Positions 1-58,672 of a stretch of DNA of 64,000 nucleotides are shown here, piece after piece. The translations under genes and the position numbers were made by a program. The notes beneath the pieces were generated by a model that did not search any database, was not told the origin of the DNA, and saw only the letters and a list, made by a program, of their open reading frames with translations. Each line of letters begins with the position of its first letter. Within the stretch, counting starts at the first letter, position 1. The stretch spans positions 1-64,000 of the forward strand of contig CALMJT010000131.1 in the NCBI GenBank assembly GCA_937864365.1. The letters run 5' to 3'. This stretch comes from an uncultured Alteromonadales bacterium (GTDB lineage: Bacteria; Pseudomonadota; Gammaproteobacteria; Pseudomonadales; Cellvibrionaceae).

Positions 1-34
1 TTTTATTTGCAGACGAGATATTATGGCAGATCTC

Positions 35-58
35 GGAGGTTAATCAGAGGTTCCTCTA
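35..58 (+). repeat. Remnant of the window's intergenic repeat (3' end only)
   Basis: The stretch GGTTAATCAGAGGTTCCT matches the 3' terminus of the repeat family described at 39444-39594. It lies where the reading frame of the downstream peptidase gene acquires a stop codon (TAA at 41-43). Only the terminal hairpin region is recognisable, so this is a scar or deleted copy, not a full element. Confidence 0.55.
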
Positions 59-7173: not shown

Positions 7174-7202
7174 AAAAAAGCCGCCGAAAGGCGGTTTTTT
7201 TA
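7174..7202 (+). terminator. Rho-independent terminator of lysS
   Basis: A-tract, stem CCGCC-GAAA-GGCGG and T-tract, 17 bp after the lysS stop codon. Confidence 0.88.
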
Positions 7203-7217
7203 TACTTGTTATTTTTT

Positions 7218-7371
7218 AGGAACCTCGGACCAACTTATCCATGACTGAATCAGAGTGAAGAAACTGAAAATACGATTTTCAGTTTCTTCACAATTTCAAT
7301 CACTTACCCATCTTGAAATTGGCGACATATCCTTGTGTCGCTAGAGACTCTAGGTTTATTGGAGTTTCTGT
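7218..7371 (+). repeat. Intergenic structured repeat, full-length copy 1
   Basis: Forward-orientation copy, AGGAACCTC... to GGAGTTTCT. Hairpin 2 is a perfect 17-bp stem here (7255-7271 with 7275-7291, loop ACG). It differs from the usual AGAAATTG/CAATTTCT by matched changes on both arms (AGAAACTG/CAGTTTCT). The dyad GCGACA...TGTGTCGC of hairpin 4 is also recognisable. Confidence 0.9.
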
Positions 7372-7823: not shown

Positions 7824-7973
7824 AGGAACCTTTGATTGACTCATTCGTGATTTAATCAGAAGAAAGAAATTGAACTGTGATTTTTAGTTTTTACAATTTT
7901 AATCACTTACCGTTCCTGAAATTCGTGACGCATTTTTATGTCACCGGAAACTCTAGGTTGATCAGAGCTTCCC
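7824..7973 (+). repeat. Intergenic structured repeat, full-length copy 2
   Basis: Forward copy, AGGAACCTTTGATTGAC... to AGAGCTTCCCT. Hairpin 4 reads GTGAC...GTCAC where most copies have GCGAC...GTCGC, so both arms have changed together. Confidence 0.85.
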
Positions 7974-8341
7974 TTAGCTAAGTTTATTTAAAAATAATAA
8001 AAGCAGGTTGTATCTATAATTTTCGTAATAAATCTAATATTAGAGCCTAATTACAAAAAATACTTTTGCTTTTTTAATTTTTAATGGTTGGCTTTTAATA
8101 ATTTTATCGTATTGGTCTTATTGAAAATTCGAGAACACAATGCGGTGTAATGGTTTATTATGGCTCGCTCTTAGCAATATTCGAATTTCGTTTAAGGTGA
8201 TATTCATGAATACGTTGGTGAGTTTCAATCTTAATATTTTCTTAAGAATGAATACTTACTATTGAGATAGCCAAGGCGTATTGGTTTTCGTTTGTGTTGG
8301 CTTGTTTCTAAACTTTTTGCTGATTCAAATGGGAGGCTAAA
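7974..8341. other. Leader/intergenic region before the small gene at 8342
   Basis: About 370 bp, AT-rich. It must contain the promoter of the downstream small gene, but I cannot point to a confident -35/-10 pair. No other feature was seen. Confidence 0.5.
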
Positions 8342-8720: not shown

Positions 8721-8873
8721 TAAAAACTCTGATTAACTCATCTATGATTTAATCAAAAGGCAGAAATTAACGGTGCAATTTTCAAGCTGTTCATATTGTC
8801 AATCACTTGTTATTTTCGAGGCTGGCATTACATCACTGTTTTGCAGGCAACTCTCGCTTAATCAGAGTTGCCT
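8721..8873 (+). repeat. Intergenic structured repeat, degenerate copy 3
   Basis: Forward copy from AACTCTGATTAACTC to TTAATCAGAGTTGCCT. The terminal hairpins are intact, while hairpin 4 has decayed (GGCATTACATCACTG). Confidence 0.8.
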
Positions 8874-8960: not shown

Positions 8961-9110
8961 GCGCTTTGGTTAACTCATCCATGATTTAAACAGAGAACAG
9001 AAGTTGACAATGTGATTTCTGAATTCTTCACACTGTCAATCATTGATTGTTCTTGAAATTGACGACACATGCCCGTGTCACTGTAAACTCTGGGCCAATT
9101 AGAGTTTCCT
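8961..9110 (+). repeat. Intergenic structured repeat, copy 4 upstream of ung
   Basis: Forward copy ending AATTAGAGTTTCCTA about 45 bp before the ung start codon. The left end is degenerate (GCGCTTTGGTTAACTCATCC). Together with copy 3 it fills most of the gap between the small gene and ung. Confidence 0.8.
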
Positions 9111-12675: not shown

Positions 12676-12830
12676 TAGGAAGCTCTGATTAACCTAGAGT
12701 TTCCAGCGACACAAGGATGTGTCGCCAATTTCAAGAACTGTAAGTGATTGAAATTGTGAAGAAATTGGATATCGCAATTTCAATTTCTGTCCTCTGATTA
12801 AATCAGGGATGAATTAATCAGAGGTTCCTA
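12676..12830 (-). repeat. Intergenic structured repeat, full-length copy 5
   Basis: Reverse-orientation copy flanked by TA on both sides (TAGGAAGCTCTG... to ...GAGGTTCCTA), starting 5 bp after the ygfX stop. All five hairpins are intact. Confidence 0.92.
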
Positions 12831-13354: not shown

Positions 13355-13490
13355 TAGGAACTTTTGATTAACAAATCCTTAATTAATCAGTGATTAGATG
13401 TTGGAAATGTAATTTTCAATTCCTTCACAGTTTTAATGGTTGCCCTTATTTAAATTCATGGCACATCTCTGTGTCAGTAGTACTCAGATA
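13355..13490 (+). repeat. Intergenic structured repeat, degenerate copy 6
   Basis: Starts TAGGAACTTTTGATTAAC. The middle (TTGGAAATGTAATTTTCAA) and the GTGTC arm of hairpin 4 are recognisable, but the right end has decayed. Confidence 0.65.
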
Positions 13491-13957
13491 TTATAAAGAT
13501 TTTTTTAATATTCACTTAAACAGAAAATAAATTTTAATAATAAGTTTTAGTGTTAAAGCATCTTTATTTACACCTCAGTCTGAGTGATCGTTATTTTTAG
13601 TGTGAAGTTGACTTGCGTCACGTTTTTGCCAGTTACTTTTCGTGTTTTTCACATAACTGTAAAGTTTCCGACGCTTTTTTTAAAAGAAATACGATTTTTA
13701 AAATTAACCATTGCTGATCAATTAAAAATCACTTGAGTTTTAGGATTGTTTTTTAGTAACCTATAAAAATAAATAAGAAAGGTTACTGGTTTGTTTGGCC
13801 ATACGGCTATGTTTGAGAGAATTCCGTTAGCATCGTTGTGAAGTGTTTGTCTTCAACACTGCTAAATATATAAGAATAATAGATTAATTATTTCCACTCG
13901 GTGACTATCACCAAATACATTAAATCAACCAAAAAAATATTGATTCATGGGACTGTT
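13491..13957. other. Upstream region of the first beta-propeller gene
   Basis: About 470 bp of AT-rich DNA with no ORF I would defend. The long leader suggests regulation, but no operator stands out. Confidence 0.45.
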
Positions 13958-21676: not shown

Positions 21677-21834
21677 TAAGAAGCTCTAGTTCAATTTGGG
21701 TTTCCAGTGACGCAGTAATAGTAATGTCTCGCCAATTTCAGCAAAGAGTAGATGATTGAAATGGTGAAGAAATTGGAATCCGTATGGGTCATTACCCTCT
21801 GATTAAATCGTGAAAGAGCTAATCGGATGTTTCA
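21677..21834 (-). repeat. Intergenic structured repeat, degenerate copy 7 (rseB-rseC gap)
   Basis: Reverse copy, AAGAAGCTCTAGTTC... to ...GCTAATCGGATGTTTC. The central GATTGAAATGGTGAAGAAATTGG block matches well; both termini have decayed. It fills most of the gap between rseB and rseC. Confidence 0.75.
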
Positions 21835-22630: not shown

Positions 22631-22785
22631 TAGGAAACTCTGATTAACCTAGAGTTTCTCGCGACACAAGGATGTGTCGTCAATTTCAAGAACTGTAAGT
22701 GATTGAAATTGTGAAGAAATTGGAAATCACATTTTCAATTTCTGTCCTCTGATTAAATCAAGGATGAGTTAATCAGTGGTTCCTA
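22631..22785 (-). repeat. Intergenic structured repeat, full-length copy 8 (rseC-mucD gap)
   Basis: Reverse copy with TA at both edges (TATAGGAAACTCTG... to ...GTGGTTCCTATAAT). One of the best preserved copies and nearly identical to copies 5 and 12 through the central hairpins. Confidence 0.93.
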
Positions 22786-38611: not shown

Positions 38612-39445
38612 ATGCACAATATTGATGATTTAAAGTATTTGATGGCTAGGTTGAGAGATCCAGATTCAGGCTGCCCTTGGGATTTAAAGCAAGATTTTCA
38701 TACCATCACCAACTCCACCATAGAAGAAGCTTACGAAGTTGCCGACACTATCGAGCGCGGCGACCTCAAGCATCTTTCGGAAGAGCTGGGTGATCTGCTG
38801 TTTCAGGTGATCTTCTACAGTCAGCTCGCTAAAGAGCGAGATCTGTTCGATTTCGATGTCATCGTCGATAACATAGTTACCAAGCTGGTTCGACGTCATC
38901 CGCACGTATTTCCCGATGGGAATCTGCAGGGTTCAATAGATCCCCAGGACAAGTCTGACAGCGCTGTAAAAACCAATTGGGAGCAAATCAAAGCCGATGA
39001 GCGCAAGCAAAAAGGCCAAGGCGGAATTCTGGACGACGTACCCGTGGGGTTACCGTCGTTAACGCGTGCCGAAAAGCTGCAAAAAAGAGTGGCAAGAGCC
39101 GGATGGGATTGGCGCTCGCTTCAAGGTGTGCTCGATAAGATCGATGAAGAGGTCGCAGAAATCAAAGAAGCCATTCACGTCGCCGGAAGCGAGCAGGCCG
39201 CCAAGGTCGATCCCCACGTGCGCGAAGAGTTGGGTGATTTGATGTTTATGACTGTTAATCTATCGCGTTATCTAGGGATCGATGCCGAGGGTTGCCTACG
39301 TGAAAACAATCACAAATTCGAGCGGCGAGTTAAAGGTATGGAGTCGGTATTGTTAGAATCTGGCATCGCGTTTAATGATGCCAGTGACGAGCAACTGGAT
39401 GCCGCTTGGGAAGCCGTGAAGCTCGCCGAGAAATCTCGACGATAG
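38612..39445 (+). CDS. mazG: Nucleoside triphosphate pyrophosphohydrolase MazG
   Basis: Hydrolyses NTPs/dNTPs to the monophosphate; in E. coli it counteracts (p)ppGpp accumulation, which fits its place after relA. It has two MazG domains. The first shows CPWDLKQDFHTI, EEAYEVADTIE and EELGDLLFQVIF; the second EVAEIKEA and EELGDLMFMTVN. ATG 38612 (MHNIDDLKYL) is preferred over the track TTG. The stop codon TAG overlaps the first bases of the repeat at 39444. Confidence 0.94.
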   Translation: MHNIDDLKYLMARLRDPDSGCPWDLKQDFHTITNSTIEEAYEVADTIERGDLKHLSEELGDLLFQVIFYSQLAKERDLFDFDVIVDNIVTKLVRRHPHVFPDGNLQGSIDPQDKSDSAVKTNWEQIKADERKQKGQGGILDDVPVGLPSLTRAEKLQKRVARAGWDWRSLQGVLDKIDEEVAEIKEAIHVAGSEQAAKVDPHVREELGDLMFMTVNLSRYLGIDAEGCLRENNHKFERRVKGMESVLLESGIAFNDASDEQLDAAWEAVKLAEKSRR

Positions 39446-39594
39446 GAACCTCTGATTAACTCATCCATGATTTAATCAGAGGACAGAAATTGACAATGCG
39501 ATTTCCAATTTCTTCACAATTTCAATCACTTACCCTTCTTGAAATTGGCGATACATCCTTGTGTCGCGAGAAACTCTAGGTTAATCAGAGTTCC
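39444..39594 (+). repeat. Intergenic structured repeat, full-length copy 9 (reference copy)
   Basis: About 151 bp from AGGAACCTCTGATTAAC to GGTTAATCAGAGTTCCT, near-perfect inverted termini. Five hairpins in order: CCTCTGATTAA/TTAATCAGAGG, AGAAATTG/CAATTTCT, AATTTCAA/TTGAAATT, GCGATACA/TGTGTCGC and GAAACTC/GAGTTTC (one mismatch here). It begins inside the mazG stop codon and ends in the gap before the SDR gene. No ORF is present within it. Confidence 0.93.
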
Positions 39595-48729: not shown

Positions 48730-48932
48730 TAGCAACCTCTGATGAATTCCGTCGTGATCTAATCAGCGGGCAGACATTGAAGATGCGATTTCAATGTTTT
48801 CGCAATTTCAATGTTCTCGCAATTTCAATGTTCTCGCAATTTCAATGTTTTCGAAATTTCAATCACTTGTGGTTCTTGAAATCGGCGACACAAGAGTGTG
48901 CCACTGGAAACTCTGAGTTAATAAGAGTTTCT
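48730..48932 (+). repeat. Intergenic structured repeat, expanded copy 10
   Basis: About 203 bp rather than 150. The ends (AGCAACCTCTGATG... to ...AATAAGAGTTTCTTT) and hairpins are degenerate, and the centre carries an internal tandem expansion (see 48789-48856). Hairpin 2 has become ACATTGAA/TTCAATGT, with both arms changed. Confidence 0.85.
48789..48856 (+). repeat. Four tandem 17-bp units inside repeat copy 10
   Basis: TTTCAATGTTTTCGCAA and close variants occur four times head-to-tail with 1-2 differences. The normal copies have a single equivalent unit at this point. Confidence 0.93.
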
Positions 48933-49117: not shown

Positions 49118-49272
49118 TAGGAACCTCTGATTAACTCATCTATGATTTAATCAGAGGGAAGAAATTGACAATGCGATTTCCAATTTCTTCACAGTTTCAA
49201 TCACTTACCGTTCTTGAAATTGGCGATACATTCTTGTGTCGCGAGAAACTCTAGGTTAATCAGAGTTTCCTA
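49118..49272 (+). repeat. Intergenic structured repeat, full-length copy 11
   Basis: Forward copy with TA flanks (CTATAGGAACCTCTG... to ...AGAGTTTCCTATATA), all five hairpins intact. It ends 24 bp before the hydrolase start codon, so it lies in that gene's leader or promoter. Confidence 0.93.
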
Positions 49273-50356: not shown

Positions 50357-50511
50357 AAGGAAACTTTGATTAACCTAGAGTTTCTTGCGACACAAGGATG
50401 TGTCGCCAATTTCAAGAGCAGTAAGTGATTGAAATTGTGAAGAAATTGGAAATCGTATTGCCAATTTCTGACCTCTGATTAAATCAGGGGCGAGTTAGTT
50501 AGAGGTTTCTA
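50357..50511 (-). repeat. Intergenic structured repeat, full-length copy 12
   Basis: Reverse copy, AAGGAAACTTTGATTAACC... to ...TTAGAGGTTTCTAA, about 105 bp after the hydrolase stop. Hairpins 2-5 are well preserved. Confidence 0.9.
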
Positions 50512-56730: not shown

Positions 56731-56835
56731 TAGGAACCTCTGATTAACTCGTCCACAATTTCAATCACTTACAGTTCTTGAAATTGGCGACACATCCTTG
56801 TGTCGCGAGAAACTCTAGGTTAATCAGAGCTTCCT
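56731..56835 (+). repeat. Intergenic repeat, 105-bp internal-deletion copy 13
   Basis: TAGGAACCTCTGATTAACTC at the left and TTAATCAGAGCTTCCT at the right, with hairpins 3-5 intact. The second half of hairpin 1 and all of hairpin 2 are missing (about 48 bp). It lies between the Fur-box promoter region and the PepSY start. Confidence 0.92.
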
Positions 56836-56920: not shown

Positions 56921-57239
56921 AATAACAAAATCTACAGTTTTAAGCCTGCAAAGTGTTAATTTTGTTTAGTAGATTAAGGAAGAAATGTGGAAATAGGTCA
57001 GATGTTGATAGCCACAGGTTAGATTCTAGAAAACGCTTGCAAAGTAATCTAGGAGTTTCTGCTTAGATCATGGCTGAGCCAATCGAAAATTTCTGTGCAA
57101 AAACAGAAAAGAGACTCTTTTTTGTATCTCTGCCTATAAAGATAAATATTGCGAAATATAGGCAATGATATGCGAGGTATTGTTGTTTCTAAAGGGGATT
57201 AGATAATAAATCTTAAAAAACAGCAGCGGATTTTTTATC
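56921..57239. other. Intergenic region between Fur box and decayed repeat
   Basis: About 320 bp; includes CAAAAACAGAAAAGAGACTCTTTTTTGT, a possible weak hairpin with a T-run. No gene was seen. Confidence 0.4.
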
Positions 57240-57316
57240 GGTTAAATAACCTACCGTTTTCTAAATGGCCGACACATCCCTGTGTCGCTACAAATTCTGG
57301 ATTTATTAGAATTTAT
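57240..57316 (+). repeat. Partial repeat (hairpins 4-5), decayed
   Basis: GGCCGACACATCCCTGTGTCGC is a good match to hairpin 4. The right end (CTGGATTTATTAGAATTTATA) is degenerate. It lies just after the nucleoside hydrolase gene. Confidence 0.7.
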
Positions 57317-58514: not shown

Positions 58515-58672
58515 TAGAATTTCTGATTAACGCTTCCGTGATTTAATCAAAGAAAAGGCATTGAAAATATAATTTTTAATGTCTTCGCAATTTTAATGGT
58601 TTACGGTTTATGAAATTGGCAACACATCCTTGTGTCGCTAGAAGCTTTTGGTGAATCTGAATTCACTTTAGT
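58515..58672 (+). repeat. Intergenic structured repeat, copy 14 between receptor and hydrolase
   Basis: TAGAATTTCTGATTAACGC... with hairpin 2 as GCATTGAAAAT / ATTTTTAATGTC and a clean hairpin 4 (CACATCCTTGTGTCGC). The right end is decayed. It separates two genes on the minus strand that otherwise look like an operon. Confidence 0.8.

Follow-up and report, generated by a model that had tools for sequence, protein, structure and literature searches.

Matched changes in both arms of a hairpin are usually regarded as the best evidence for a functional RNA structure. Several families of small repeats with which the element described here can be compared are known from bacteria. BrickBuilt and the other IS5-derived MITEs of Porphyromonas gingivalis are likewise small and non-coding, carry IS5-type terminal inverted repeats (TIRs), occur in many copies and are flanked by target site duplications (TSDs) (PMC4596501). 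Correia/NEMIS, ERIC, and QMITE2 share with the present element a length of 100–200 bp, AT-richness, an intergenic location, TIRs and transcripts predicted to fold strongly (PMC10969869, PMC2229807). Template switching between hairpin arms is a known mutational process by which, it has been proposed, hairpins may arise and be maintained (PMC8794818; PMC7202029); as suggested below for one hairpin of the present repeat, the described cases, including the quasipalindromes of E. coli, involve compensation through copying of one arm, with no two-step path.

The repeat under study is a MITE, a small non-coding mobile element scattered across the genome of a marine bacterium. It is ∼151 bp long (GGAACCTCTGATTAA...TTAATCAGAGTTTCC), contains no ORF, and is bounded by 15-bp TIRs and 4-bp target duplications, the TIR pair being GGAACCTCTGATTAA/GGAAACTCTGATTAA. 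A profile search located ∼17 copies or copy fragments on both strands of the window (the whole stretch of DNA analyzed, 64,000 nucleotides); across 1.76 Mb of the genome it recovered 202 that were near-full, or ∼540 copies in 4.72 Mb by extrapolation. The exact 15-bp end, when sought alone, gave 405 matches genome-wide. The TSD, mostly TATA, TTTA, TTAA, or TCTA, was exact in 55 of the 64 young copies (<5% divergence) and its exactness fell with age, the overall figure being 93 of 201 copies as against 20 with shuffled partners. Only two of the 202 copies overlapped an ORF of at least 100 aa by more than 75 nt, which places the repeat in intergenic DNA, and between tandem genes it was found in both directions relative to the genes (56:58). 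The repeat was classed as a MITE on the basis of its short length, intergenic location, multiple copies, TIRs, TSDs, and lack of orientation preference. Hundreds of intergenic copies range in age from 1% to >30% divergence, and of the 57 relatives searched, MITE copies, all of them old, were present in one examined congener only, whose orthologous region downstream of lysS had no copy. The TIRs in common with a longer, probably transposase-encoding element, the TSDs, the intergenic copies, and the mostly unconstrained decay of the stems all support this classification. A REP/REPIN identity, with RAYT and IS200/IS605-like mobilization, is unlikely because of the TSDs and the IS5-type TIRs.

Copy 1 (GGAACCTC...GGAGTTTC(T), 7219–7369, plus strand; nhmmer profile alignment 7219–7368, 13% from the consensus) sits between lysS and a run of more copies, and the ordinary intrinsic terminator of lysS (GCCGCCGAAAGGCGG followed by T7; 7174–7201, plus strand) lies apart from it. 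On the plus strand of copy 1, hairpin 1 (7223–7256, profile columns 5–38) consists of the left TIR core and an inverted copy thereof and covaries family-wide; it is followed by hairpin 2 (7255–7291, exact sequence match), hairpin 3 (7291–7321, columns 73–103), hairpin 4 (7322–7341, columns 104–123), and hairpin 5 (7344–7368, columns 126–150), which forms the right TIR end. Copy 2 occupies 7825–7975 (plus strand, right end approximate). Further copies located by nhmmer on the plus strand are at 8722–8872, 8963–9109, 13356–13498 (divergent), 39444–39593 (3% from the consensus; the copy that served as query, also supported by BLAST), 49119–49270 (5%), 56734–56829 (left part missing), and 57051–57311 (interrupted or expanded); those on the minus strand are at 12678–12829 (5%), 21680–21834 (divergent), 22633–22784 (4%), and 50359–50510 (9%). 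The plus-strand copy at 58517–58663 carries matched changes at pairs 5–38 (C-G to T-A) and 44–66 (A-T to C-G). Copy 10 (48731–48931, plus strand) harbors an internal array of 4.5 units of 17 nt (ATTTCAATGTTCTCGCA) at 48788–48863, which originated from the hairpin 2/3 region of this copy, i.e., a minisatellite that arose within a MITE.

Longer elements with an identical 18-bp end, GGAACCTCTGATTAACCT, were also found, with two kinds of end at 14 and 10 places. One of them, with a 54-bp end (GGAACCTCTGATTAACCTCCGAGATC...) found by pattern search at 14 places in the genome, lies at 1–54 on the minus strand, where it is cut by the contig start. Draft contigs often stop within the MITE or within longer GGAACCTCTGATTAACCT-ended elements, as at window positions 1–54 and at 23 other places. 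One kind of longer end continues into a transposase C-terminus of 56 residues, the contigs ending inside the element. This C-terminus matched DDE_Tnp_1 above the Pfam cut-off, and its best NCBIfam model was IS5_4 (E = 4e-10), under the whole-protein cut-off, as a fragment would be. A full-length relative, 44% identical across the 56-aa fragment, scored 321 bits against a cut-off of 140, and the full relatives in the same bacterial family are IS5-type. A related IS in L246 measures 1158 bp and has the TIR GGAACCTCTGA(A/T)TAATTC and the TSD CTAA, in line with the ends and duplications of the IS5 group. Identical TIRs also bound unrelated MITE-sized elements of ∼140–290 bp (L180, L188, L192, L193, L206, L217, L231, L236, and L237) in an uncultured Saccharophagus, a Pseudolysobacter, and other MAGs, so that one TIR is associated with many independent interiors.

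The folding potential of the repeat is beyond chance, with whole-element z values of −5.3 for RNA and −6.7 for DNA, and all five hairpins out-folded nearly all shuffles. As DNA, hairpin 1 (−10.0 kcal/mol) and hairpin 4 (−8.5 kcal/mol) are the most stable, the other hairpins reaching −4.7 to −5.4 kcal/mol; these two most stable hairpins are the two that covary. Long-range pairing between the TIRs, seen when the RNA of one copy was folded to minimum energy, was rejected as the TIRs did not covary with each other. A role as terminator was similarly rejected, as no T-run stands behind any hairpin and a separate lysS terminator precedes copy 1. A search of the whole window against Rfam revealed no family at gathering score.

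The genome-wide covariation test proposed in the preliminary description was approximated by aligning 197 distinct copies and controlling for mutation rate, for relatedness among the copies, and for pairing with wrong partners. A cell was counted as compensated when both partners differed from the consensus yet still paired, and the counts were compared with a tree-based null, with site-specific substitution spectra and with matched wrong-partner control pairs (n = 2579), which stood at 0.97–1.05 of expectation. Robustness was evaluated by splitting the data in half and by dereplication (removal of copies less than 8% apart). Only two hairpins had more matched changes than chance would give, hairpin 1 clearly and hairpin 4 weakly. 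In hairpin 1, 50 cells were compensated, compared with 20 under the tree-based null, 20 under the site-specific spectra, and 24 in wrong-partner pairs (20–25 over the three kinds of null). The excess persisted in both halves of the data, upon dereplication (43 vs. 23), and in every age class; it exceeded 2000 matched control sets whether or not the data were dereplicated, and sliding the partner by one column abolished the covariation signal. Hairpin 4 had 55 compensated cells compared with 27, 33, and 39 under the same three nulls, respectively, an excess of matched changes of the transition type that is modest yet reproducible, in columns that include fast-mutating, CpG-rich positions. No excess was seen in hairpin 2 (18 vs. 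13–16 across nulls) or hairpin 3 (13 vs. 12–13); hairpin 5 (12 vs. 6–12) was borderline against the tree-based null only, and TIR–TIR pairing (20 vs. 18–20) showed that the left and right ends do not covary.

No individual pair was significant in an R-scape-like test that used the 197 distinct copies, their tree, and a simulated null, and double changes on the same branch were only weakly enriched (16 vs. 11, p = 0.1). The conclusion that there is no covariation whatever, which had been drawn from these per-pair and same-branch results, was overturned by the hairpin-level tests with wrong-partner controls. A column shuffle also flagged hairpin 2, but this result was set aside: the shuffle takes no account of how copies differ in age, and the same number of double changes was reached by a slid control.

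The preliminary description had inferred from matched changes in hairpins 2 and 4 that a folded structure is maintained. The sequences on which it relied are present exactly: the perfect 17-bp hairpin of copy 1 (GTGAAGAAACTGAAAAT-ACG-ATTTTCAGTTTCTTCAC, 7255–7291) was found letter for letter, as were GTGAC...GTCAC at 7925–7944 in hairpin 4 of copy 2 (pair C105-G122 changed to T-A) and ACATTGAA...TTCAATGT at 48774–48797 in hairpin 2 of copy 10. These matched changes are hand-picked examples and represent about what decay yields, because 42% of random double changes come out complementary owing to the dominance of transitions. Nor do matched changes dominate: among 613 stem-pair cells in 12 near-full window copies, 104 were changed on one side and 15 on both (9.7 expected), with seven of them matched, and at most ∼2% of stem changes are compensated. 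For hairpin 2, the view that matched changes exceed chance did not hold (18 compensated cells vs. ∼16 expected genome-wide, p ∼0.3). What stands of the claim of compensatory change is thus the excess in hairpin 1, which had not been cited, and the modest one in hairpin 4; matched changes by themselves, moreover, do not demonstrate that an RNA is under selection.

The consensus of hairpin 2 has a stem of 8 bp and, inside it, a second helix of 4 bp, which copy 1 extends to 17 bp, the longest perfect run among the hairpins of the 197 copies. Only a single consensus stem pair (T46-A64 to C-G) was altered on both sides in copy 1; the remaining gain in stem length came from one-sided changes where the consensus is unpaired, and copy 1 also bears nine one-sided stem changes. 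Starting from the GGGAAG subfamily, copy 1 requires just one paired and two single changes. In another copy (L006:7290–7440), the outer 5′ flank of hairpin 2, TTGTGAAG, matches the opposite arm, CTTCACAA, giving a 15-bp stem; no other copy shows a clear multi-base tract, which makes this one the best candidate for template switching over several bases. A general extension of stems by template switching, suggested by the long stem of copy 1, was considered and rejected, as pairing gains at consensus-unpaired positions were at the null level, though copying between arms should lengthen stems.

The covariation of hairpin 1 is most likely caused by mutational copying between the arms of a DNA hairpin. 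A point mutation would arise in one arm of hairpin 1, i.e., in the left TIR or its inverted copy; the replicating strand may then fold back at the quasipalindrome, whereby the mutation would sometimes be copied into the opposite arm. Such copying would keep the two arms matched with no selection on RNA. Two-step compensation, whether selected or not, is expected to give a lower share of transversions. In a spectrum test devised only once the list of compensated genotypes was known, the transversion share of hairpin 1 compensations was 0.35, similar to that of one-sided changes (0.38), compared with 0.13 in wrong-partner controls (p = 2e-4, dereplicated). This similarity points to one copied mutation rather than two independent ones, and template switching accounts for the hairpin 1 pattern at least as well as selection does. 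That covariation falls on the two hairpins most stable as DNA likewise points to a DNA process. Compensations in hairpin 4 had a transversion share of 0.08, without the spectrum of copying, and hence a cause other than arm copying is needed there. The account as a whole, namely a ∼151-bp MITE mobilized in trans by an IS5-family transposase and subject in hairpin 1 to arm copying by template switching, is about evenly balanced between being right and being wrong.

Selection could also act at the DNA level, through transposition. A palindromic left end would then be needed, either as two inverted transposase-binding cores or as a folded end, and mismatches in hairpin 1 would make a source element less mobile, whereas compensation would restore its movement. 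The left TIR lies within hairpin 1, the hairpin 1 excess extends over all age classes, and compensated alleles occur in young copies and in amplified subfamilies; since some of these alleles belong to young multi-copy subfamilies (5–38 G-C, three copies), selection at the source element fits them as well. However, the two TIRs show no covariation with each other (20 vs. 19), the hairpin 1 excess is equally strong in dereplicated, divergent copies, its transversion share is too high for compensation in two steps, and the known ends of the longer partner element lack an inverted TIR core. Selection for transposition is therefore possible but on the whole rather unlikely. In a more specific but doubtful proposal, the left end is functionally palindromic: folded or bound twice, it would serve the transposase or a replication intermediate, and selection for mobility would keep its hairpin paired while the rest of the element drifts; if true, this would constitute an unexpected end requirement for an IS5-type, DDE-mobilized element.

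Chance combined with shared ancestry might also explain all of the matched changes, the excesses in hairpins 1 and 4 being residual artifacts of the tree, the alignment, or site-specific mutation bias. The absence of any single significant pair, the near-null count of same-branch double changes, and the fast-mutating, CpG-rich columns of hairpin 4 are in agreement with this explanation. It is nevertheless improbable, as wrong-partner pairs drawn from the same copies stayed at a ratio of 0.97–1.05, hairpin 1 lay above 2000 matched control sets and was significant in both halves of the data, and a slide of the partner by a single base removed the signal.

Selection for a folded RNA, which the preliminary description had read from the matched changes, is unlikely because there was no preference for G-U wobble, no preference for orientation and free decay of the stems. 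The strong folding potential of the repeat and the roles reported for other bacterial MITEs (PMC10969869, PMC2229807) would suit an RNA structure useful to the host, such as an mRNA stabilizer, an RNase III site, a terminator, or a small RNA, but the chance of this is slim, as one-sided transitions that form wobble pairs were nearly equal on the plus and minus strands across hairpins 1–4 (hairpin 1, 95:97; hairpin 4, 119:128), orientation between tandem genes was unbiased, hairpins 2, 3, and 5 decayed neutrally, compensation was confined to the small fraction of stem changes given above, and neither T-runs after the hairpins nor an Rfam match were found, with the lysS terminator already in place upstream of copy 1.

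Hundreds of mostly neutral MITE copies, 1% to >30% divergent, amount to a natural mutation experiment. In this family, matched changes can surpass chance in the most stable DNA hairpins with no RNA-level signature, which calls for caution when covariation tests are applied to palindromic repeats. If mutational copying between hairpin arms is confirmed, the family could serve to measure, in a natural bacterial genome, how often such copying occurs relative to ordinary mutation.

Compared with the MITEs of Porphyromonas gingivalis (PMC4596501), the present element differs in its TIR (GGAACCTCTGATTAA), its 4-bp TA-rich TSD, and its interior of five hairpins. An internal tandem array like that of BrickBuilt (PMC4596501) occurs in copy 10, here in one examined copy only. 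Unlike Correia/NEMIS, ERIC, and QMITE2, to which it showed no sequence relation in Rfam, its hairpins are local, its TIRs do not covary with each other, and it bears no RNA-level signature. The elements with the same TIR in Saccharophagus, Pseudolysobacter, and Burkholderiales MAGs are similar in their identical 15–18-bp TIR, in CTAG/CTAA-type duplications where these are intact, and in their size of 130–290 bp, whereas their interiors are unrelated and their inspected left ends have no inverted TIR core. The precedents for template switching come from RNA genes (PMC8794818) and reporter quasipalindromes (PMC7202029), whereas the present proposal concerns a dispersed MITE with copies largely unconstrained by selection.
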